A stretch of 21,067 nucleotides of DNA, taken from IMG/VR virus record IMGVR_UViG_3300043449_000575, positions 1 to 21,067 of that record, one strand, 5' to 3'. The translations under genes and the position numbers were made by a program. The DNA comes from a virus. The notes under the pieces were generated by a model. It was not told the origin of the DNA. It ran no database searches and worked only from the letters and a program-made list of their open reading frames with translations. This document shows positions 2,772 through 14,800 of the stretch, piece after piece (positions within the stretch are counted from its first letter, which is position 1; each line of letters starts with the position of its first letter).

Positions 2772-4252
2772 TGGGACTGATGGATTTCTTCAAGCGCCAG
2801 AAGAAGGCGACCGGGAAGCGCGATTATCTGGCGGCTTCGAAGGGCCGCCTGTACATGGACTTCAAGGGCAGCAACAAGTCGGCTGACTCCGAGATCAGGT
2901 GGGTTCTGCGGGATCTCCGCAACCGCGCCCGCGATCTGGAGCGCAACAACGAATACGCCCGTCGATACCTCCAGTTGATGCAGACCAACGTGGTCGGCGA
3001 GAGCGGATTCCGCCTGCAGCTGAAGGGCCGGAACATTGACGGCACCATCGACATGGCCGGGAACAACATCATCGAAGGCGCGTGGGCTGAGTTCTGCCGT
3101 CTCGGCGGCCCGACAGTGGACGGCAAGATGTCAATGGCTGACCTGTCCAACGCGGTCGTGCGCGGCGTGAAGCGCGACGGCGAGGTCTTCCTGCACATCG
3201 TCCGCAGGCAGTATCTGCGCCACGGCATCGCTGTGCAGATCATCGAACCTGACCGCATCGATGAGCAGATGAACGAGACGCTGCGGAATGGCAATCAGGT
3301 CCGCATGGGCGTCGAACTGGACAGCCAGACGCGGCGCGTTGCAGCCTATCACGTTCTGGTGAACAACCCCGGCGACTACGACTACACGACCACGACCACT
3401 GGCGTCTTCCGCGAGAGAATCCCTGCCGATCAGATCCTGCATATCTATGTGCAGGAGCGGGCGGATCAGACGCGGGGCGTGCCGGAACTGGTCACGGCCA
3501 TGCCCGCGCTGAAGATGCTTCACGGGTATCGCGAGGCAGAACTGACGGCGGCCCGTGTCGGCGCGTCCAAGATGGGCTTCTTCACCTCTCCTGCGGGTGA
3601 TGGGTTCACTGCGGACGGGTTCGAAGACACTTTCACGCCGATCTATGACGCCGAGCCTGGCACCTTCCATCAGTTGCCTGACGGCGTCAGCTTCACGCCC
3701 TTCGACCCGACGCATCCGACATCGGCCTTCGCTGATTTCGAGAAGGCGATCCTGCGCGGAATCGCTGGCGGCCTTGGGATCAGCTACACGGCGCTGGCGA
3801 ATGACCTGGAGGGGACATCGTACTCTTCAATCCGGCAGGGTGCGCTGGAGGAGCGTGACTTCTACAAGACGCAGCAGCGGTTCTTCATCGAACACTTCAT
3901 CGACCCGCTCTTCCGCGTGTGGATGCGCCATGTGATGGACTTCGCCCTGATCCCGATCAACGGGCCGGGGAAATTCGAAAAGTTCTCGGCTGGCATCTCA
4001 TGGCGGGCGCGTGGCTTCCAGTGGGTTGACCCACTGAAGGAGATCAACGCTGCCGTTGTCGGGTTGCAGAACGGCATCCTGAGCCACACCGACATCGCGG
4101 CGACCTATGGCCGGGATGCTGAAGAAACCTTCGCGCAGATTGAGCGCGACAAGGAGATGGCGAAGCAGTTCGGCCTGTCGATGGCTTACGAGCCATTCGG
4201 GACGAAGCTGCCCGTCGAGGCTCAAGTGGAGGACGGCGGGAATGGCGTATAA
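2771..4252 (+). CDS. Portal protein, lambda gpB family
   Basis: The portal forms the dodecameric ring at the unique capsid vertex; DNA enters through it and the tail attaches to it. The 493 residues fit the lambda portal family. Recognisable parts are the LRNRARDLERNNEYARRYL helix (about 49-67) followed by NVVGESGFRL, the RRVAAYHVL segment, the QERADQTRGVPEL loop, and GLGISYTALANDLEGTSYSS, the most conserved stretch of the family. The start ATG overlaps the preceding stop codon (TGATG), which implies translational coupling. The end overlaps the capsid polyprotein start by 11 bases. The C-terminus is short and lacks a fused extra domain. Confidence 0.95.
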   Translation: MGLMDFFKRQKKATGKRDYLAASKGRLYMDFKGSNKSADSEIRWVLRDLRNRARDLERNNEYARRYLQLMQTNVVGESGFRLQLKGRNIDGTIDMAGNNIIEGAWAEFCRLGGPTVDGKMSMADLSNAVVRGVKRDGEVFLHIVRRQYLRHGIAVQIIEPDRIDEQMNETLRNGNQVRMGVELDSQTRRVAAYHVLVNNPGDYDYTTTTTGVFRERIPADQILHIYVQERADQTRGVPELVTAMPALKMLHGYREAELTAARVGASKMGFFTSPAGDGFTADGFEDTFTPIYDAEPGTFHQLPDGVSFTPFDPTHPTSAFADFEKAILRGIAGGLGISYTALANDLEGTSYSSIRQGALEERDFYKTQQRFFIEHFIDPLFRVWMRHVMDFALIPINGPGKFEKFSAGISWRARGFQWVDPLKEINAAVVGLQNGILSHTDIAATYGRDAEETFAQIERDKEMAKQFGLSMAYEPFGTKLPVEAQVEDGGNGV

Positions 4253-6977
4253 GCCCACATCCGAGATGCAGGAAGAAGCCCAGCGCGGGCTGGATTGGCG
4301 CCGCGAGTTTGGGCGCGGTGGCACCGAGGTCGGCATCGCCCGCGCCCGTGACATCGTGAACGGCAAGAACCTGTCGCTGGACACCGTCAAGCGCATGAGA
4401 AGCTTCTTCTCCCGCCACGCGGTGGACAAGGAAGCTGAAGGGTTTCGGCCTGGTGAAGACGGGTATCCGTCGAATGGTCGCATCGCGTGGGCGCTCTGGG
4501 GCGGGGACGCTGGCGAGGATTGGGCCGAGGACATCATCGGTGACATCGACGACAGCGCGTCATCGGACGAAAACGCCATGGACGAAAGCCGTGCCGCGGC
4601 TGATGCGCTGAAGGTCGGCGATTTCGTCGAGTGGAACTCTTCTGGCGGCATGGCGCGTGGGCAGATCGAACACATCATGCGTGAGGGGACGCTTGGCATC
4701 CCCGACAGTGATTTCTCCATCAATGCCACGCCGGAAGATCCTGCGGCGCTGATCCGCATCTTCCGCGACGGTGAAGCGACCGAGACACTGGTCGGCCATC
4801 GGTTTTCGACGCTGACCAAGATCAGCCCGATCCGATCTGAAGGTGCGCGGCCCTATGCCAACGAACATGCGGCCCGCATCCGCGATCCTCGCCAATACGA
4901 CAGCTTCCGTCGCAGGAACAACGGCGGCGGCCAAGGCGTCGATTTCATTTTCGGCATCAAGGATGGCAACAGCGAGATCCAAGCCATCCGTTTCCGCACG
5001 CAGTTCTTCACCGTGGCAGAGGCGCGGGCCTGGCTGAAGCGGAACAATTTCGAGCCGATCCAGTTCGAACCAGCGACAGAAGATGCACGCTCTATGCAAG
5101 CGGGGGATGACTTTGATATGATCGCCCGTGAACTGGAGGACTCTGCGATGCTCGACGACGAACAGATGGAGCCGACCGAGGATCAGGCCGAGGCGCTTGA
5201 ACTCGAAACGGCACGCTATTCGCGTGACAAGATCGAAACCCGTGCGATGGACATGGAGGACAAGGTCATCGACAAGGATGGCCGCCGTGTGAAGATCGCG
5301 GTTTCGTCCGAGGCGCCTGTCGAGCGGTCTTTCGGCATTGAAATTCTCGACCACAAGCCTGGCAGCATCGATCTGTCGTTCTTGAATTCTGGTCGGGCGC
5401 CACTGCTTCTGGATCACGATCCGACGAAGCAGATCGGCGTTGTGGAATCGGTGGCTCTTGATGGCTCGGCACGGCGTCTCCGTGCGACCGTCCGCTTCGG
5501 AAGAAACGGGCTTGCCAAAGAGGTCTTCGATGACGTTGAGGATGGTATCCGGGCGAACATCTCGGTCGGGTATCAGATCAACAAACTGGACAAGGAGGGC
5601 AAGGAAACCTACCGCGCCACTTCTTGGATGCCTATGGAAGTTTCCATCGTGTCTATCCCCGCTGACAGGACAGTCGGCGTTGGTAGGGCGGCGGCTGACG
5701 ACCTGACCACCACCATCCCTGCAACCCCTGTCATGGAGGCCAAAATGGCTGAAGTTGATCTGGAAGCGGTCAAGGCCGAAGCTGCCCGTGCCGCTGCCAA
5801 AGAAGCCGCCGAGATGATCCGTCTCGGTTCTGCCCACAACAAGCGTGAACTCGCTGAGAAGGCCATCGCGTCGGGCCGCTCCCTCGCCGAGTTCCGTGGC
5901 GAACTGCTGGAAGTCATCGGCAACAAGCCGCTGGAAACCGCAGATGTGGGCCTGACCCGCAAGGAAGTCCGCAAGTTCTCGCTGATGGCGGCGATCCGTG
6001 CGATGGCGAACCCGACCGATTACCGCGCCCAGGAAGAAGCCCGCTTCGAATTCGAAGCCTCGGCTGCTGCCCAGCGTGCGATGGGTCTGGAAGCCCGTGG
6101 CCTGATGATCCCGGCAGATGTGCTGCGGTCGTGGGCGAAGCGTGACCTCAACACCTCGGACGACTCTGGGCTGATCGCTCAGGACTTCCGTGGCGGCGAC
6201 TTCATCGACGTTCTCCGCAATGCATCCTCTGTGATGCAGGCTGGTGCGACGATGCTGACGGGCCTCAAGGGCAACGTGGCGATCCCGAAGAAGACGGCTG
6301 GCGCTTCCGCTGGCTGGATTTCGACGGAAGGCGGCGCTGCTTCCGAGTCCGAGCCGACCTTCGGCCAAGTCACGATGACCCCGAAGACGCTGGGCGCGTT
6401 CACTGACATCACCCGTCTGATGATGATGCAGTCGTCCCCCGATATCGAAGCCCTGGTTCGTGACGACCTGTCGCGTGCCATCGCTCTCGCCATCGACGAC
6501 GGCGCTCTTGAAGGCTCTGGCTCTTCGGGCCAGCCCACGGGCATCAAGAACACCAGCGGTGTGAACAAGCCGACCTCGTTTGCTGCGGCCAACCCGACCT
6601 TCGCTGAGGTCGTGGCTCTGGAAACCGCCGTCGCCGAGGACAACGCTCTGCTGGGCAATCTGGCGTACATCCTGCCCGCTTCGATGTACGGCGCTCTGAA
6701 GACCACTGCGAAGGCGGCCAACACCGCTCAGTTCGTGGTCGAGCCTGGCAACACCATCAACGGGTATCGCGCCATCGTGTCGAACCAGGTCACCGCTGGT
6801 GATCTGCATTTCGGCAACTATGCCGACCTGCTGATCGGCATGTACGGCGGCCTGGACATCCTGGTCGATCCCTACACTTCGTCCTCTTCGGGTACGGTCC
6901 GCATCCGCGCCCTCCAGACGGTCGATGTGGCGGTTCGTCACGCGGTGTCCTTCGCCTACAACAACGACGGCGTGTGA
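4242..6977 (+). CDS. Fused prohead protease and HK97-fold major capsid protein with extra N-terminal modules
   Basis: This 911-residue polyprotein builds and matures the head. The start at 4242 is chosen because GGAGG lies 9 bases upstream; the longer frame from 4107 sits inside the portal gene. Modules: 1-100, a phage module with RREFGRGGTEVG and GRIAWALWGGD; 123-197, a TUDOR-like DUF2945-type module (VGDFVEWNSSGG); 203-280, another phage module (NEHAARIRDP, AEARAWL); 325-485, HK97-type serine protease with likely His392 (LLLDHDP), Ser441 (ANISVGYQ) and an acidic residue in MEVSIVSIPAD; 500-600, an Ala/Glu-rich delta-like helix; 600-911, the HK97 shell fold (ASAGWISTEGG, GQPTGI). No separate scaffold, protease or shell gene is present. 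Protease-capsid fusions are known in some phages; cleavage near residues 620-640 is inferred. Confidence 0.92.
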   Translation: MAYKPTSEMQEEAQRGLDWRREFGRGGTEVGIARARDIVNGKNLSLDTVKRMRSFFSRHAVDKEAEGFRPGEDGYPSNGRIAWALWGGDAGEDWAEDIIGDIDDSASSDENAMDESRAAADALKVGDFVEWNSSGGMARGQIEHIMREGTLGIPDSDFSINATPEDPAALIRIFRDGEATETLVGHRFSTLTKISPIRSEGARPYANEHAARIRDPRQYDSFRRRNNGGGQGVDFIFGIKDGNSEIQAIRFRTQFFTVAEARAWLKRNNFEPIQFEPATEDARSMQAGDDFDMIARELEDSAMLDDEQMEPTEDQAEALELETARYSRDKIETRAMDMEDKVIDKDGRRVKIAVSSEAPVERSFGIEILDHKPGSIDLSFLNSGRAPLLLDHDPTKQIGVVESVALDGSARRLRATVRFGRNGLAKEVFDDVEDGIRANISVGYQINKLDKEGKETYRATSWMPMEVSIVSIPADRTVGVGRAAADDLTTTIPATPVMEAKMAEVDLEAVKAEAARAAAKEAAEMIRLGSAHNKRELAEKAIASGRSLAEFRGELLEVIGNKPLETADVGLTRKEVRKFSLMAAIRAMANPTDYRAQEEARFEFEASAAAQRAMGLEARGLMIPADVLRSWAKRDLNTSDDSGLIAQDFRGGDFIDVLRNASSVMQAGATMLTGLKGNVAIPKKTAGASAGWISTEGGAASESEPTFGQVTMTPKTLGAFTDITRLMMMQSSPDIEALVRDDLSRAIALAIDDGALEGSGSSGQPTGIKNTSGVNKPTSFAAANPTFAEVVALETAVAEDNALLGNLAYILPASMYGALKTTAKAANTAQFVVEPGNTINGYRAIVSNQVTAGDLHFGNYADLLIGMYGGLDILVDPYTSSSSGTVRIRALQTVDVAVRHAVSFAYNNDGV
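5135..5150 (+). promoter_or_regulatory. Internal Shine-Dalgarno and in-frame ATG before the protease module
   Basis: GGAGG at 5135-5139 stands 8 bases before an in-frame ATG at 5148, at the linker between the third N-terminal module and the protease. Initiation here would give a 609-residue protease-capsid protein lacking the three N-terminal modules. The sequence match is plain; use as a start is inference. Confidence 0.45.
5735..5747 (+). promoter_or_regulatory. Internal Shine-Dalgarno and in-frame ATG before the capsid shell module
   Basis: GGAGG at 5735-5739 lies 5 bases before an in-frame ATG at 5745, immediately after the protease domain. Translation from here gives a 410-residue protein starting MAEVDLEAVKAEAA, the normal length and N-terminal helix of a free HK97-type major capsid protein. 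It could supply excess shell subunits over protease, or be the relic start of a once separate gene. Confidence 0.5.
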
Positions 6978-8020: not shown

Positions 8021-8413
8021 ATGGCAACGCACGCTGGCAGCGAAGGCACCGTCAAAGTCGGGGCCAACACCATCGCTGAGATTCGGTCCTACTCCATTGA
8101 GGAGTCGGCAGACACGCTGGAAGACACCACGATGGGTGATGTCGCCCGCACCTATAAGTCGTCGCTGACGACCTATACCGGGACCATCGACGTTCTGTGG
8201 GATGAGACGGACACCACTGGTCAGGGTGCGCTGACCATCGGGTCGTCTGTCACGCTGAACCTGTATCCCGAAGGTGCATCCACTGGCGATGTCTACTACA
8301 GCGGGACGGCCATCGTGACGGGTCGGTCGATCTCTGGCGCCTATGACGGCCTGGTCGAGATGTCGATCACCGTGCAGGGCAACGGCGCTCTGTCGCAATC
8401 GACGGTGGCCTGA
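8021..8413 (+). CDS. Major tail tube protein
   Basis: This 130-residue, beta-rich, Thr/Ser-rich protein stacks as rings to make the flexible tail tube. It starts with GSEGTVKVGANTIAEIRSYSIEESADTLEDTTMGD, the N-terminal strand pattern of siphovirus tube proteins, and ends with a strand (LVEMSITVQGNG) typical of the fold. Lambda gpV is about 246 residues and carries an extra Ig-like domain; this protein has only the tube domain. It is followed directly by the G/GT chaperones, the expected order. Confidence 0.85.
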   Translation: MATHAGSEGTVKVGANTIAEIRSYSIEESADTLEDTTMGDVARTYKSSLTTYTGTIDVLWDETDTTGQGALTIGSSVTLNLYPEGASTGDVYYSGTAIVTGRSISGAYDGLVEMSITVQGNGALSQSTVA

Positions 8414-8757
8414 TGAGTCTGGCAAAACGCATCGCGGCCAAGCGGGCTGACCAACAGCGCGGATTTGTCGATGTGGAGGAATGGGGCGAGGGGGATACCC
8501 CCCTTCGCCTCTTCTTCACCTCTGTCAGCGCACGCGACATCGAAAAGGTGCAGCGGAAATACAAGGACTTCCTGACCCAGACATCCCTGGGCGCGATGGT
8601 CGAGATGATCATCGAGAAGTGCGAGGATGAGAAGGGCGACAAGGCCTTCACGCTGGAGGACAAGCCCATCCTGATGGGTGAGCCGATCGGCGTCATCGCC
8701 AAGGTATTCGGCGCGGTCTTCAATGCGACGAACATTGAGGAACACGCAAAAAACTGA
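8413..8757 (+). CDS. Tail assembly chaperone, gpG-like
   Basis: This 114-residue protein between the tube and tape measure genes corresponds to lambda gpG, which coats the tape measure protein and recruits tube subunits before disappearing from the mature tail. It begins with a basic helix (SLAKRIAAKRADQQRG) and contains mixed helices and strands. Its last sense codons are AAA AAC just before TGA, forming a slippery site that lets ribosomes enter the T frame. The ATG overlaps the tube stop (TGATG). The call rests on position and on the frameshift signal. Confidence 0.85.
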   Translation: MSLAKRIAAKRADQQRGFVDVEEWGEGDTPLRLFFTSVSARDIEKVQRKYKDFLTQTSLGAMVEMIIEKCEDEKGDKAFTLEDKPILMGEPIGVIAKVFGAVFNATNIEEHAKN

Positions 8758-8918
8758 GGGGCAACCCGTTCAGACTCAACCTGATCGCGCTGGCCGACAG
8801 GTTGGGTCGTACCATCTCCGAGATTGAGGAAATCTCGCTGGATGAGTACAATGAATGGGTTGCGTACTTTAACGTGCTGAAGGAGCGCGAGGAGCATGAG
8901 CGAAAGACTCGTATTTGA
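8413..8918 (+). CDS. Tail assembly chaperone GT fusion made by -1 frameshift
   Basis: The product joins 8413-8754 to 8754-8918 in the -1 frame, giving 168 residues. The T part starts LRGNPFRLNLIALADRLG and continues SLDEYNEWVAYFNVLKEREEHERK, matching the pattern of the T-like domain seen in many siphovirus chaperones (a DEYNEWVAYF-type helix). The T part has no ATG or GTG start with a ribosome binding site of its own near its beginning. In lambda, GT is needed at low ratio to G: the T part binds tube subunits while G binds the tape measure. It ends inside the start of the tape measure gene (overlap of 23 bases). Confidence 0.88.
8748..8754 (+). promoter_or_regulatory. -1 ribosomal frameshift slippery heptamer
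   Basis: The heptamer A-AAA-AAC is in the correct phase: frame-0 codons are GCA, AAA, AAC, then TGA. Slipping back one base continues as CTG AGG GGC with 54 open codons to the TGA at 8916. This is one of the classic bacterial and viral -1 heptamers. Confidence 0.9.
8773..8808 (+). promoter_or_regulatory. Stem-loop downstream of the slippery site
   Basis: Positions 8773-8783 pair with 8798-8808 over 11 bp, with one G-U pair. Three inner pairs (8785-8787 with 8795-8797) follow a single bulged base. It starts 18 bases after the heptamer, longer than the usual 5-9, so its role as a frameshift stimulator is plausible but not certain. Confidence 0.55.
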
Positions 8919-10647
8919 GTTGCAGGCCATCGACCGCGCAACGGCTCCTCTCCGGGCGGTACAGGACCAGCTTGACCAGACAGGGGCCGCCACCAGGCGG
9001 CTTGCTGGTCAGATGGATGCTTCCGGCAAATCGACCCGCAAGTTCGCGATGGGTGCTTTGCAGCAAGCTGGCTTCCAGATCGGCGACTTCGCCGTCCAGG
9101 TCGCCAACGGCACAAACAAGATGCAGGCCTTCGGGCAGCAGGCTCCTCAGATCCTGCAAATCTTTGGGCCGCTGGGGGCGGTGGCTGGTGCCGCTGTCGC
9201 GATCCTCGCTGCCTTTGCCGTCGCTGCGGACAAGTCCACAAGCGCGACCAGCAGGCTGCAAGAGGCAATGGCGAAGCTGAAGGAAACTTCCGCTGGCCTG
9301 GCCGATCAGTTGCAGATGATCAGGTTTGGCGTCGGCACTCAGGAAGAGGCGACCACGCTTCAAGCCATCCTTGATTTGAATGATCAGATCGCTGTGAAAA
9401 CAGCGCAAAGAGACGCGGCTTATGGCCGTGCGAGAATCCCGCTTGACCTTGAACTGGCTGCACTCATCAAGATGCGTCAAGAGGCGGAAGCCGCTCTTGG
9501 TCTGCTTGACCAGCGACGCGCAGATCTCGCTGCTGTTGCCCAGATTGAAGAGCAAATCTCTCGGATGGCAACCATCAGGGGCAACACCGCCATTGAGGAG
9601 ATCAAGGACCGCCAGCGTGCTGTCGCCGCCCATGCACAGCAAGTGAAGTTCATGGGCCAAGCCATGAACAATCAGCGGATGATGACATTGGCCGCACAAG
9701 AGGCTCTCGACAAATATGCGAAGATGAGGACGGTGGCCGCAGGGGTTGCGAGTGAGATCGGGAATGCGGCCAATGCGGCGGCCAGACTCGCGTCAATCGG
9801 GATCAGGGGCGTTGATGCGTCTGGGAATACGATCTTCGATCCGCGTGACCCGAATTACGATCCAGGCAGGGCTGCACGGGAAAGCCAGTTCGGCTTCGAA
9901 TACAACACATCCTGGATGCGCTCTCAGGGTGGCATGGGGGGCGGTACTGGTGGCGGGGGTGGCGCTAGCCGCGAAGACGCGCTTGCCCAACTCAGGGAGC
10001 AGCTTGCCCTTGAGGAACTGCTGCTCGGAAAGACCGAGGCCCAGCGCCGCGTGATCCAAGCCCTCGGCGTGGATTGGCAGAACTATGGCGCGACGACGGT
10101 CAACGGCCTTGTCGAGCAGATCAACAGGATGGAAGAGTTCAACAAGGTCGCCGCCCAGCAGCGGGAGATCGCGAACACCATCGAAAGCGCGATGACAGGT
10201 GCCTTCATGTCCATGATCCAAGGCACCGCGTCTGTGAAGGATGCCTTCAGCAATATGGCGCGGATGATCATCGCGAAGCTGTTCGAAATCCTTGTGGTCC
10301 AGCGCATCGTGAACGGCATCATGGGCTTCGTCGGGATGGCCGTGCCAGGCCTTCTCCCCGCTGGTGTCGCCACGAACTGGAACGGCGGGAACATCACTGG
10401 CGGGCGCCCGACAGTGGTCGGCGAAAAGGGGCCGGAACTGATCGTGCCGAGCCGGAACGCGCATGTCGTCGCCAACCATCAGATGGGCGGCGGCGTGACG
10501 GTCGTGCAGAACATCAACGTCTCCACAGGCGTGCAGCAGACCGTCCGCAGCGAGATCCGGTCGCTGATGCCGCAGATCGCGGAAAGCGCGAAGGCTGCGG
10601 TCTTTGAGTCGCAACGCCGCAGCGTGAACGGGATGGGCTACGCATGA
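8896..10647 (+). CDS. Tail tape measure protein
   Basis: This protein sets tail length and is ejected with the DNA. The 583 residues would give a tail of roughly 87 nm at about 0.15 nm per residue (a rule-of-thumb inference). The N-terminal helix starts SERLVFELQAIDRATAPLR. A hydrophobic stretch, GPLGAVAGAAVAILAAFAVA, spans about 91-110, long Ala/Gln-rich coiled coils run about 115-300, a Gly-rich hinge lies near 345-359, and the C-terminal GGRPTVVGEKGPELIVPSR motif near 502-520 is shared by many lambda-like tape measures. The start overlaps the T frame, with GAGG just upstream. It is the longest tail gene after the hub. Confidence 0.93.
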   Translation: MSERLVFELQAIDRATAPLRAVQDQLDQTGAATRRLAGQMDASGKSTRKFAMGALQQAGFQIGDFAVQVANGTNKMQAFGQQAPQILQIFGPLGAVAGAAVAILAAFAVAADKSTSATSRLQEAMAKLKETSAGLADQLQMIRFGVGTQEEATTLQAILDLNDQIAVKTAQRDAAYGRARIPLDLELAALIKMRQEAEAALGLLDQRRADLAAVAQIEEQISRMATIRGNTAIEEIKDRQRAVAAHAQQVKFMGQAMNNQRMMTLAAQEALDKYAKMRTVAAGVASEIGNAANAAARLASIGIRGVDASGNTIFDPRDPNYDPGRAARESQFGFEYNTSWMRSQGGMGGGTGGGGGASREDALAQLREQLALEELLLGKTEAQRRVIQALGVDWQNYGATTVNGLVEQINRMEEFNKVAAQQREIANTIESAMTGAFMSMIQGTASVKDAFSNMARMIIAKLFEILVVQRIVNGIMGFVGMAVPGLLPAGVATNWNGGNITGGRPTVVGEKGPELIVPSRNAHVVANHQMGGGVTVVQNINVSTGVQQTVRSEIRSLMPQIAESAKAAVFESQRRSVNGMGYA

Positions 10648-11818: not shown

Positions 11819-12234
11819 AGGCGCTGTTCGCCTTCCTGCGTGAGGCCGGATCTCGCAAGTTCGAATTCGGCGTCTGGGACTGCCTGATCTTCACCAACGA
11901 GGCCTTCCGCCGGATGCACGGCGAAGGCTGGGCTGAAGATTGGGTTGGCCGATACATGGGCCAGGATCGCCCCCTGACGCGGGCTGGCCTTCGCCGCGAG
12001 TACGGCTTCAAGACGCTGGAGGATGCGCTCTGTGCGCGTCTGACGCGGGCCAGCAAGGTGCCGCCGAGGGGTGCCTTGGTCGTCGGCGCCGCTGACGTTC
12101 TGGGGGCGTCCTACATCGGGGTCAGCTTCGGGATCAGCGTCGGCACAAGCGCGGCGTTCCTTTCCGATTCCGGCGTGGTATATTTGCCCATCGAACAGAT
12201 CGACAGCGCATGGGTGAGAAATGACGCCGCTTAA
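11794..12234 (+). CDS. NlpC/P60-like tail protein (DUF6950 type), probably non-catalytic
   Basis: This 146-residue protein occupies the lambda gpK slot before J. FEFGVWDCLIFTNEAFRRM has a Cys (Cys30) at the position of the NlpC/P60 nucleophile, as in the DUF6950 family. The strand that normally begins with the catalytic His (HVGIYLG type) reads SYIGVSFG here, with Tyr107 in its place, so hydrolase activity looks unlikely. A structural or tail-assembly role is more probable. It overlaps the upstream gene by 25 bases and the hub by 14. Confidence 0.65.
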   Translation: MGPQDRQLKALFAFLREAGSRKFEFGVWDCLIFTNEAFRRMHGEGWAEDWVGRYMGQDRPLTRAGLRREYGFKTLEDALCARLTRASKVPPRGALVVGAADVLGASYIGVSFGISVGTSAAFLSDSGVVYLPIEQIDSAWVRNDAA

Positions 12235-14800
12235 AAAGCTGCTGACAGGCACGACGGCTCTGAGCCATCCAGGCAACATCGCCCATGATCCCGTCACCAT
12301 CGGGAACTCAATCTTTTATGCCCTTAGTATCACGACCGATTCGATCTTCCTGATCAAGGCCGTCGGATACCTGGCGACCGCTGTCGTCACATCTTGGGCC
12401 ATGTCCGCTTTGTTCAAGCCACCCGCCCTCGGCGGCTTTGCGAAGGGGACGCTGATCAACAACAGGACCGCCGACGCACCGCATGACTATGTCTATGGGA
12501 CGGTCAGGAAGGGCGGGACCGTCACCTACATGGAGTCTACTGGGAGCAGCAACAAGTATCTCCATATGATCCTGACGCTGGCAGGGCATGAGGTGCAGGC
12601 CATCGACGACATCTACATCGATGACCAGATCGCGACCCTGGATGGCAATGGCTTCGTCACCTCGCAGTCGTGGAACAGCAAGATCCGCATCGTAAAGTAC
12701 ACTGGTTCGCAGACGACGGCGCCTGCGCTGCTGCTGGCAGAGAGCAGCCGGGTCAACAGCAACTTCGTCGGCAACGGGATCGCCTATCTGTACATCCGGC
12801 TGGAATACGACACCGACGCATTCCCGAATGGCATCCCGCTGTTCACCGCAGTCGTGCGCGGCAAGAAGGTGTACGACCCTCGGACGGCGACGATCGCCTT
12901 TTCGTCGAATGCGGCCCTTTGCGTGCGTGATTACATCACCTCGGCGTATGGCCTTGGCGACGGCGCGATCAATGAGACAGTATTCTCGGCGTCGGCCAAC
13001 GTCTGCGACGAAAACGTCAGCCTGTCGGGCGGCGGGACGGAAAAGCGGTACACGATGAACGGGGTGTTCAACGCGGATGCGAACCCCGGCGATGTGCTGC
13101 AAAAGATGATGACCTGTTGCGCTGGCACTCTCTTCTGGGGGCAGGGCGAGTGGCAGTTGAAGGTCGGCTATTACACGCCGCCCGTCAAAACATTGACGCT
13201 CAACGATCTGCGCGGTCCGATCTCGCTTCAGCCGCGCATTTCGATGAGCAGCATCTTCAACTCTGTCGTCGGCACGTTCAACGATGCGGCGCAGGGTTAT
13301 GTGACTGTCGATTACCCGAAGCTGGCATCGGCGACGTTCTTGGCCGAGGACAACGGGATCGACAGCCCCGTCGATCTGGAGCTGCCCTTCACGACATCCT
13401 CTGCCAGCGCCCAACGCATCGCCAAGCTGACGCTCTTCCGCGGTCGTGAGCAGATGACGCTCTCCGCAGAGTTCGGGTTGGCCGCCTTCGGCATCCAGGT
13501 CGGCGACATCGTGGCCTTCACGAATGATCGATATGGATGGACGGCGAAAGAGTTCGAAGTCACGGGATGGACGTTCTTCCCGAGCCAAGACGCGGGCGAT
13601 CTGCGGGTGAAACTGGATCTGCGCGAAACCAGCGAGGCGGCCTTCGATTGGAACGCAGAAGAAAGCGCGATCCTCGCGAATAACACCAGCCTGCCGAGTT
13701 CCTATGCCACCCAGGCGGTCGGGTTGAGCGTGGTGTACGAGACGAGGGTTTACCGCGAGAAGGTCACCAGCGTCATCAAGATCACGACAAGCGTCACCGA
13801 CGAAATCTTCATCGACAGGGTTGAGGTCGAGGGCAAGCTTTCTTCGTCCCCTGCATCCGCTTTCGTGCCTATCGGGTCTGGACCCATCGGGGTTTACGAG
13901 TGGATCGATGTGACCGCAGACTATTACGACATCAGGGCAAGGTCGGTGAGCCAGCTTGGCGTCAAGTCGGCATGGACGACTGTTTCGAACTTCCAAGTCG
14001 CCGGGATCATCGTCCCTCCCGACGATGTGGCCGACTTTTCGGCCAACCTCAACGGCGGCACGATCAACCTTGATTGGGAACCCATCGGCAGTCTTGACCT
14101 GTCATACTACCTGATCCGGCACGCTCTGGAGGAATCCGGCGCATCCTTCGGCAACGCCACGACGGCTGTCCCCAAGGTGTCTCGGCCCGCCACTTCGGTT
14201 GCCGTGCCGACGCGCCCCGGCACATACATGATCAAGGCCTACGACAAGACGGGGAACGGGTCGTCCAACTATACCAGCGTCATCGTCCCAGCGACGGCCC
14301 TTGAGACATTCGCGAACAACCTGACCGACACCGAAAGCCCGACCTTCCCCGGCACCAAGACGGGCTGCTCCGTCACATCCTCCGCACTTCGGATCACGAC
14401 GACCTCCTCGCCGCCTTCTTCGGCGACCTATGAGTTCACGGGATATATCGACACCACCGCTGTTCGCCGCGTGCGGGCGCGGATCGACATAAACGTCGCC
14501 CGCTTCAACTCCAATTCGACCAACTGGGACTCGATGTTCCCGCAGGATCTTCTGTGGGATTCGTGGCCTGGCTTCTGGGACGATTGGAGCGGGTCGAGCG
14601 GTGTGGCCGACATTGATGTGATCAGCTACATCTCCATCACACAGCAAGATCCGGCTGGCTCACCGACTTGGTCGGCGTGGCAGCGGTTCAAGGCTGGCGA
14701 CTTTTATGGACGGGCCTTCAAGTTCAAGGTAGAATTGACCTCGACCACGGCAGGCGTGTCTCCGAGCATCACGGGGCTGACGGCCCGCGTGCAATACTGA
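12221..14800 (+). CDS. Tail tip hub / host specificity protein, gpJ-like
   Basis: This 859-residue protein probably closes the tube and contacts the host. A hydrophobic stretch (LIKAVGYLATAVVTSWAMSALF, about 44-65) precedes the hub region (about 80-480), with VYGTVRKGG, the J-family segment VYDPRTATIAFSSNAALCVRDY, and a DVLQKMMTCCAGTLFW segment. Two fibronectin-III-like modules follow (about 490-600 and 598-690), then a beta-rich C-terminal domain with a Trp-rich patch near 765-788 (five Trp) and PTWSAWQRF. Lambda J is longer (1132). The start overlaps the preceding gene by 14 bases. Receptor binding most likely lies in the C-terminal third or in the next gene. Confidence 0.88.
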   Translation: MTPLKKLLTGTTALSHPGNIAHDPVTIGNSIFYALSITTDSIFLIKAVGYLATAVVTSWAMSALFKPPALGGFAKGTLINNRTADAPHDYVYGTVRKGGTVTYMESTGSSNKYLHMILTLAGHEVQAIDDIYIDDQIATLDGNGFVTSQSWNSKIRIVKYTGSQTTAPALLLAESSRVNSNFVGNGIAYLYIRLEYDTDAFPNGIPLFTAVVRGKKVYDPRTATIAFSSNAALCVRDYITSAYGLGDGAINETVFSASANVCDENVSLSGGGTEKRYTMNGVFNADANPGDVLQKMMTCCAGTLFWGQGEWQLKVGYYTPPVKTLTLNDLRGPISLQPRISMSSIFNSVVGTFNDAAQGYVTVDYPKLASATFLAEDNGIDSPVDLELPFTTSSASAQRIAKLTLFRGREQMTLSAEFGLAAFGIQVGDIVAFTNDRYGWTAKEFEVTGWTFFPSQDAGDLRVKLDLRETSEAAFDWNAEESAILANNTSLPSSYATQAVGLSVVYETRVYREKVTSVIKITTSVTDEIFIDRVEVEGKLSSSPASAFVPIGSGPIGVYEWIDVTADYYDIRARSVSQLGVKSAWTTVSNFQVAGIIVPPDDVADFSANLNGGTINLDWEPIGSLDLSYYLIRHALEESGASFGNATTAVPKVSRPATSVAVPTRPGTYMIKAYDKTGNGSSNYTSVIVPATALETFANNLTDTESPTFPGTKTGCSVTSSALRITTTSSPPSSATYEFTGYIDTTAVRRVRARIDINVARFNSNSTNWDSMFPQDLLWDSWPGFWDDWSGSSGVADIDVISYISITQQDPAGSPTWSAWQRFKAGDFYGRAFKFKVELTSTTAGVSPSITGLTARVQY

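Follow-up and report, generated by a model that had tools for sequence, protein, structure and literature searches.

A conserved sequence signal for a probable -1 ribosomal frameshift between the tail genes G and T of Roseobacter-type phages and their relatives

Introduction

The frameshifted G-T class of tail genes is well known. In phage lambda, the genes lie in the order V-G-T-H, that is tube protein, G, T and tape measure, with a -1 heptamer (G_GGA_AAG) near the end of G, and in HK97 the deposited record annotates a -1 frameshift product for gp13/gp14. A_AAA_AAC has been described in the same kind of gene of the haloarchaeal virus HCTV-2 (PMC5009743). Outside tail genes, the -1 signals of Escherichia coli dnaX and IS911 are built from three parts: a Shine-Dalgarno-like motif upstream, an A-rich heptamer and an RNA structure downstream, which in IS911 is a three-way junction (PMC5009743).

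Here we describe the G-T locus of a virus record of 21,067 bases that carries a morphogenesis block of siphophage type; this whole stretch, to which all positions refer, is called the window. A preliminary description, made from the sequence alone, had read a frameshifted G-T tail chaperone here, and heptamer conservation, selection on T and the profiles matched by G and T support that reading. The class itself being familiar, what the locus adds is a new member with an unusually well-defined signal; its T is unannotated in the ten G-T-type phage records that we examined, in keeping with the earlier remark that ordinary gene finding misses it.

Results

The morphogenesis block of the window runs from terminase, portal, protease-capsid fusion, head closure, tail terminator and tail tube to G, T, tape measure and distal tail, and all features of the G-T locus lie on the plus strand. 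The gene for the major tail (tube) protein (8021..8413) matches PHROG 1407 major tail protein (E 7e-13), falls just short of the cut-off for Pfam Phage_tail_2 (E 1.5e-4) and adjoins G on the 5' side, as in the lambda order. Directly 3' of G-T lies the tape measure protein gene (8896..10647; PHROG 1538, E 1e-12; TMP_2, E 1.6e-5, under the curated cut-off), which starts inside T with an overlap of 23 nt. The major tail protein and tape measure genes thus enclose two overlapping frames; the second of these, T, is in the -1 frame and has no start of its own. The 138-nt gap between G and the tape measure gene that had been pointed out earlier was measured at 8758-8895; it is really coding, being occupied by T.

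Other parts of the window also drew our attention. At 4248-6977, a single ORF combines an N-terminal part that is TUDOR-like with an S78 prohead protease and a major capsid protein of HK97 type (PHROG 617 and 4523). On the minus strand, several small ORFs between 17778 and 20199 start with MTD-D/E-E/D-LI and have a RIEAL-type stretch in common; they look like paralogues. The top RNA stability relative to codon permutation across the whole window was found at 13181-13303 (z -6.0), within the tail tip/fibre ORF 12221-14800.

Gene G (8413..8757) begins with ATG, ends with GCA AAA AAC TGA and encodes 114 aa as the product of ordinary translation. It matches the tail assembly chaperone profile PHROG 344 (E 1.1e-5), as do 29 of 33 family members, and has this profile in common with HK97 gp13. 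The AlphaFold model of G (pLDDT 85.7) has the same protein as its top PDB match (2OB9; Foldseek probability 1.00, E 1.2e-3), at 17-19% identity in the fold alignment. A Pfam search returned nothing over the cut-off for G, and a PDB search with the sequence profile of G found no relative. By profile and predicted fold, G belongs to the tail assembly chaperone family and would function as a chaperone.

The slippery heptamer A_AAA_AAC is located at 8748..8754. Its first A is the third position of the codon GCA, which gives the exact X_XXY_YYZ phase and agrees with what had been claimed for the end of G. The TGA stop of G (8755..8757), an 'intercodon' stop, is the codon directly after the heptamer. 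The preliminary description had placed the heptamer two codons before the stop; its two codons are indeed the last two of G, but the stop abuts directly, with zero nucleotides in between. AAAAAAC was observed once in the window against 0.69 expected from dinucleotide shuffles, so its presence alone is unremarkable and the evidence therefore rests on phase, place and conservation.

We examined conservation in 202 distinct G relatives. They came from GenBank phages and from IMG/VR, which was queried with three sequences: the window, CRP-406 and Pelagibacter phage HTVC026P. A permitted -1 heptamer is flush with the stop in 200 of the 202 (191 AAAAAAC, 7 AAAAAAT and, in HTVC111P and HTVC112P, 2 AAAAAAG). 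With Sinorhizobium phage phi3LM21, in which AAAAAAC lies one codon ahead of the stop, 201 of 202 relatives have a permitted in-phase heptamer at the stop or one codon before it. Heptamer-bearing relatives span Roseobacter-type and Pelagibacter-type phages, with identities in G as low as about 26-34%. The one relative without a heptamer is the distant, single-cell-derived Marine virus AG-345-A17 (L336, 1501-1900), where a T-like frame after G lies in the +1/-2 frame. This sequence suggests that the shift has changed direction in the wider family, which fits the variation in direction known among tailed phages (PMC5009743). The alignment of related phages that the preliminary description had proposed as a check is therefore favourable, the 200 relatives keeping the heptamer in the same phase and place; close relatives that retain T and have lost the heptamer, named there as the observation that would overturn the reading, were searched for among the 202 and not found.

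Conservation extends to the choice of codons. The end of G, its last three codons, shows zero synonymous variation in 67 distinct genes: codon 112 may encode A, E, T or L yet always ends in A, codon 113 is always AAA and codon 114 always AAC. Two published findings count against a frameshift at such a site, namely that in E. coli A_AAA_AAC slips less readily than A_AAA_AAG (PMC5009743) and that a stop adjoining the heptamer reduced frameshifting in test constructs (PMC4373837). In known phage sets, heptamer and stop are on average 26-36 nt apart (PMC10885494).

The two AAAAAAG phages, HTVC112P and HTVC111P (L331, L332), have a dnaX-like layout of their own: A_AAA_AAG flush with the stop is followed about 5 nt further on by a common compact hairpin, AGCGACC...GGTCGCT. 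Their records annotate an antisense ORF over T, which is probably spurious.

The T frame (8754..8918) runs in the -1 frame from CTG at 8754 to TGA at 8916-8918 and comprises 54 codons and a stop, as had been described, the prior stop in this frame being a TGA at 8736, only 12 nt ahead of the heptamer. T would form the C-terminal part of a G-T fusion with a calculated length of 114 + 54 = 168 aa, the length given earlier. ATG is absent from the frame, and the sole start-type codons found are TTG 8802 (codon 17) and GTG 8874. Among relatives, start-type codons in T are scattered, and 13 of 200 have an ATG among the first 12 codons of T. The absence of an evident start, also noted in the preliminary description, hence extends to the family: no alternative start is conserved, so that a start of T's own, the other refuting observation named there, was sought in these sequences and not found.

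We found the T frame open over 102 nt in 198 of 198 aligned relatives, compared with 14 and 1 for the other two frames. In 33 thinned sequences, pairwise pN/pS was 0.26 in the T frame, compared with 0.87 and 2.28 for the two remaining frames. By these sequence measures, T evolves as a protein under purifying selection. T matches PHROG 337 (E 4.1e-6), as do 27 of 30 relatives, and lambda gpT matches the same profile (E 4.7e-7), which places T in the gpT family. Its AlphaFold model consists of three helices (pLDDT 91.4). Pfam gave no match over the cut-off for T, and a fold search with T alone gave no match.

Within the T region, folds, pair counts and a synonymous null point to a long-range 12-bp RNA stem with its 5' arm at 8761..8772 and its 3' arm at 8852..8863. 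The stem begins 6 nt past the heptamer, a spacer that fits the usual 5-9 nt (PMC5009743). In the window and near relatives it closes a predicted three-way junction with two inner hairpins, at 8773..8808 and 8809..8849, the former of which is not kept through the family. This hairpin was also considered as the stimulator and rejected, since it begins as far as 18 nt past the heptamer and covariation in the family does not support it; we retain it as an inner arm only. An Rfam search of 8600-9100 gave no match.

Stability of the T-region mRNA was compared with synonymous recodings sampled from the codon usage of the same phage. A codon-permuting null, applied to an 8-bp version of the stem, had revealed nothing, because residues that occur only once cannot be permuted; it was replaced by this sampling. 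The mRNA was more stable than its recodings in all of 32 thinned near relatives (mean z -3.44, 32/32 negative), in 19 further relatives (mean z -2.91) and in the window itself (z -5.7), while control windows in G and the tape measure gene gave z -0.95 for the 32 near relatives and -0.83 for the further 19. The 12-bp stem formed 362 of 384 pairs against 302 +/- 5 under the synonymous null (0/1000) and, in a second set, 190 of 228 against 159 (0/1000). Pair counting in 35 sequences gave 93.6% paired, versus at most 43.6% when slid. The covariation score in these sequences exceeded 500 of 500 shuffles; these shuffles do not keep relatedness, which makes the synonymous null the stronger test.

Codon choice in T follows the stem as well. 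Arg7 of T is AGG/AGA in 30 of 33 sequences versus a background of 28%, and Asn33 is AAT in 31 of 33. Of 25 sequences whose codon 4 starts with G, 21 have a codon 36 ending in C, whereas of 7 whose codon 4 starts with A, 5 have a codon 36 ending in T. Part of the conservation of the stem is imposed by the T residues DPF and NEW. Taken together, these comparisons support selection on the 12-bp stem, with conservation beyond what the protein would require, so that a downstream structure at 5-9 nt under selection, as in signals of the dnaX/IS911 type, is present here.

Farther from the window, the downstream region varies. In DSL-LC06, a distant phage from a lake, a stem of other sequence lies at about the same place (z -3.3), no structure was seen in this region of phi3LM21 (z -0.9), and the Pelagibacter group has none over background (mean z -0.4). 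In Pelagibacter-type relatives (L007, L170-L249, L330), the heptamer ends a run of about nine A's and the GAGG motif described below is missing.

Upstream of the heptamer, we identified a Shine-Dalgarno-like GAGGA at 8737..8741 as a candidate 5' stimulator, based on codon 109 and on its invariance. Codon 109 is GAG in 67 of 67 distinct relatives, though GAA is the commoner Glu codon, and positions 8737-8741 show zero variation in 33 thinned close relatives. From the end of GAGG it is 7 nt to the heptamer, 8 to the P-site codon and 11 to the A-site codon; Shine-Dalgarno spacings reported for -1 shifts are 9-14 nt (PMC5009743). Counting against a stimulatory role, GAGG offers no more than four bases for pairing, at a spacing of 7 nt compared with 10 nt for AGGGAG in dnaX. 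A function of GAGG as an internal Shine-Dalgarno stimulator is plausible. Neither this motif nor the downstream stem figured in the preliminary description.

Discussion

We consider it very probable that a programmed -1 ribosomal frameshift makes gpG-T from G and T. The phase of the heptamer, its conservation, the protein selection on T, the membership of both genes in known families and the selection on the stem can be read from the sequences themselves; slippage itself, its efficiency, the parts played by GAGG and the stop, and the action of G as a chaperone are inferred. According to this model, most ribosomes would end G at the stop at 8755 and release gpG of 114 aa. In a minority, tRNA-Lys on AAA and tRNA-Asn on AAC would slip back by one base onto AAA AAA, and the slipped ribosomes would read T to 8918, yielding gpG-T of 168 aa. 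The mRNA stem with its 12-bp base 6 nt past the heptamer probably stimulates the slip, pairing of GAGG with 16S rRNA possibly assists it, and termination at the flush stop may compete with slippage, at least with slippage after translocation. As in lambda, gpG would coat the tape measure protein while the T domain of a few gpG-T copies would recruit the tail tube protein; the ratio of G to G-T would matter for tail assembly because of this division of roles.

Other explanations of the overlapping frames have to be weighed against this model. T could be a separate gene, translated from TTG 8802 or by coupled re-initiation at the overlapping stop. Both TTG 8802 and GTG 8874 are present in frame, the stop of G does overlap the T frame, and Shine-Dalgarno-like motifs near gene ends can serve coupling (PMC5009743). 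However, the window's T frame has no ATG and the start-type codons it does have are not common to its relatives, in most of which T codon 1 is CTA, not a usual start; a start at 8802 would moreover lose the conserved first 16 residues, and a start of any kind within T gives the heptamer no reason to be invariant. We regard an independent start as very improbable. Even less credible is that T is an unexpressed remnant whose frame is open by chance, as its annotation in none of the ten deposited G-T-type records might suggest; a chance frame is at odds with the low pN/pS of T relative to the other frames and with its being open in every aligned relative. A further alternative places the slip at the level of transcription, with RNA polymerase deleting or adding a base on the A run of the mRNA. 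The Pelagibacter-type L007 and L330 have about nine A's, a length reported for such slippage (PMC5009743), and Pelagibacter-type relatives are without RNA structure, so in those phages transcriptional slippage could contribute. The run in the window is only A6, however, and nearer relatives have A6-A7; the seven AAAAAAT and two AAAAAAG relatives all keep the ribosomal heptamer phase, and the downstream stem at ribosomal spacing is under selection. Slippage of the polymerase is, in our view, highly unlikely to account for gpG-T here.

Within ribosomal frameshifting, the point of slippage can be placed differently. Instead of tandem slippage in the P and A sites, the tRNAs might slip in the E and P sites after translocation, with the stop in the A site, in which case the level of release factor would set the ratio of G to G-T. 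That 200 of 202 relatives keep the stop flush with their heptamer argues for this variant, as does a bacterial system with a stop at such a place in which frameshifting is sensitive to the cognate release factor (PMC4373837). The 6-nt spacer, on the other hand, fits the ordinary P/A placement, and the stop may be invariant simply so that gpG ends at the right residue; as both routes yield the same protein, the sequence does not separate them. We think E/P-site slippage unlikely, though a serious contender, and take tandem slippage on the A_AAA_AAC heptamer as the working model.

Selection supports a compound signal of GAGG, heptamer, stop and stem, which appears to resemble the dnaX/IS911 type. 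We tentatively put forward, while holding it to be somewhat doubtful, that a compound signal undescribed for tail genes, made up of a GAGG that pairs with rRNA, a stop always next to the heptamer and the conserved long-range stem within T, sets the G-T ratio throughout this family of aquatic alphaproteobacterial phages, that tail assembly responds to the release factor level, and that Pelagibacter-type phages use a longer A run without structure instead. With this locus, a widespread phage group whose records lack T gains a well-supported, unannotated case of frameshifting of the conserved tail type. Its signal, which includes an RNA stem open to testing and a stop adjoining the heptamer, is unusually clear, and natural variants (AAAAAAT, AAAAAAG, A9 without stem, and a distant relative with T in +1/-2) would allow the parts to be compared in a single gene family.

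Among named phages, the Roseobacter phages CRP-821/822/823/831 and CRP-811 (70-71% identity in G) and CRP-406 (57%) are nearest; they have the same gene order, the heptamer flush with the stop and the downstream stem. CRP-822-type phages have been described as a family-level group (PMC12629253), in a paper whose main text makes no mention of a frameshift, and their records differ from our reading in leaving T unannotated. Genome contigs yielded one partial relative. Compared with HK97, G resembles gp13 in profile and predicted fold, and the -1 product annotated there is of the kind proposed here, while a classic X_XXY_YYZ heptamer is absent near the end of gp13. The likeness to lambda lies in the gene order, in the -1 heptamer near the end of G and in the T profile PHROG 337; lambda differs in its heptamer sequence, in a stop 15 nt away from the heptamer rather than abutting it, in a T of 144 aa compared with 54 aa, and in a downstream RNA whose stability exceeds that of synonymous recodings only weakly (z -1.6). 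The preliminary description had seen the lambda mechanism with a different heptamer. The mechanism is supported, but A_AAA_AAC was already known as a G-T site from HCTV-2 (PMC5009743), which we set beside our locus by description and which has an archaeal host. With E. coli dnaX and IS911, the locus would have the three-part arrangement in common, GAGG being the candidate for the upstream part. The dnaX Shine-Dalgarno element AGGGAG stands 10 nt before its heptamer, compared with 7 nt here, and in the window the stop follows the heptamer directly, as reported for some bacterial dnaX genes, the gene is a tail gene, and the closing stem spans about 100 nt.
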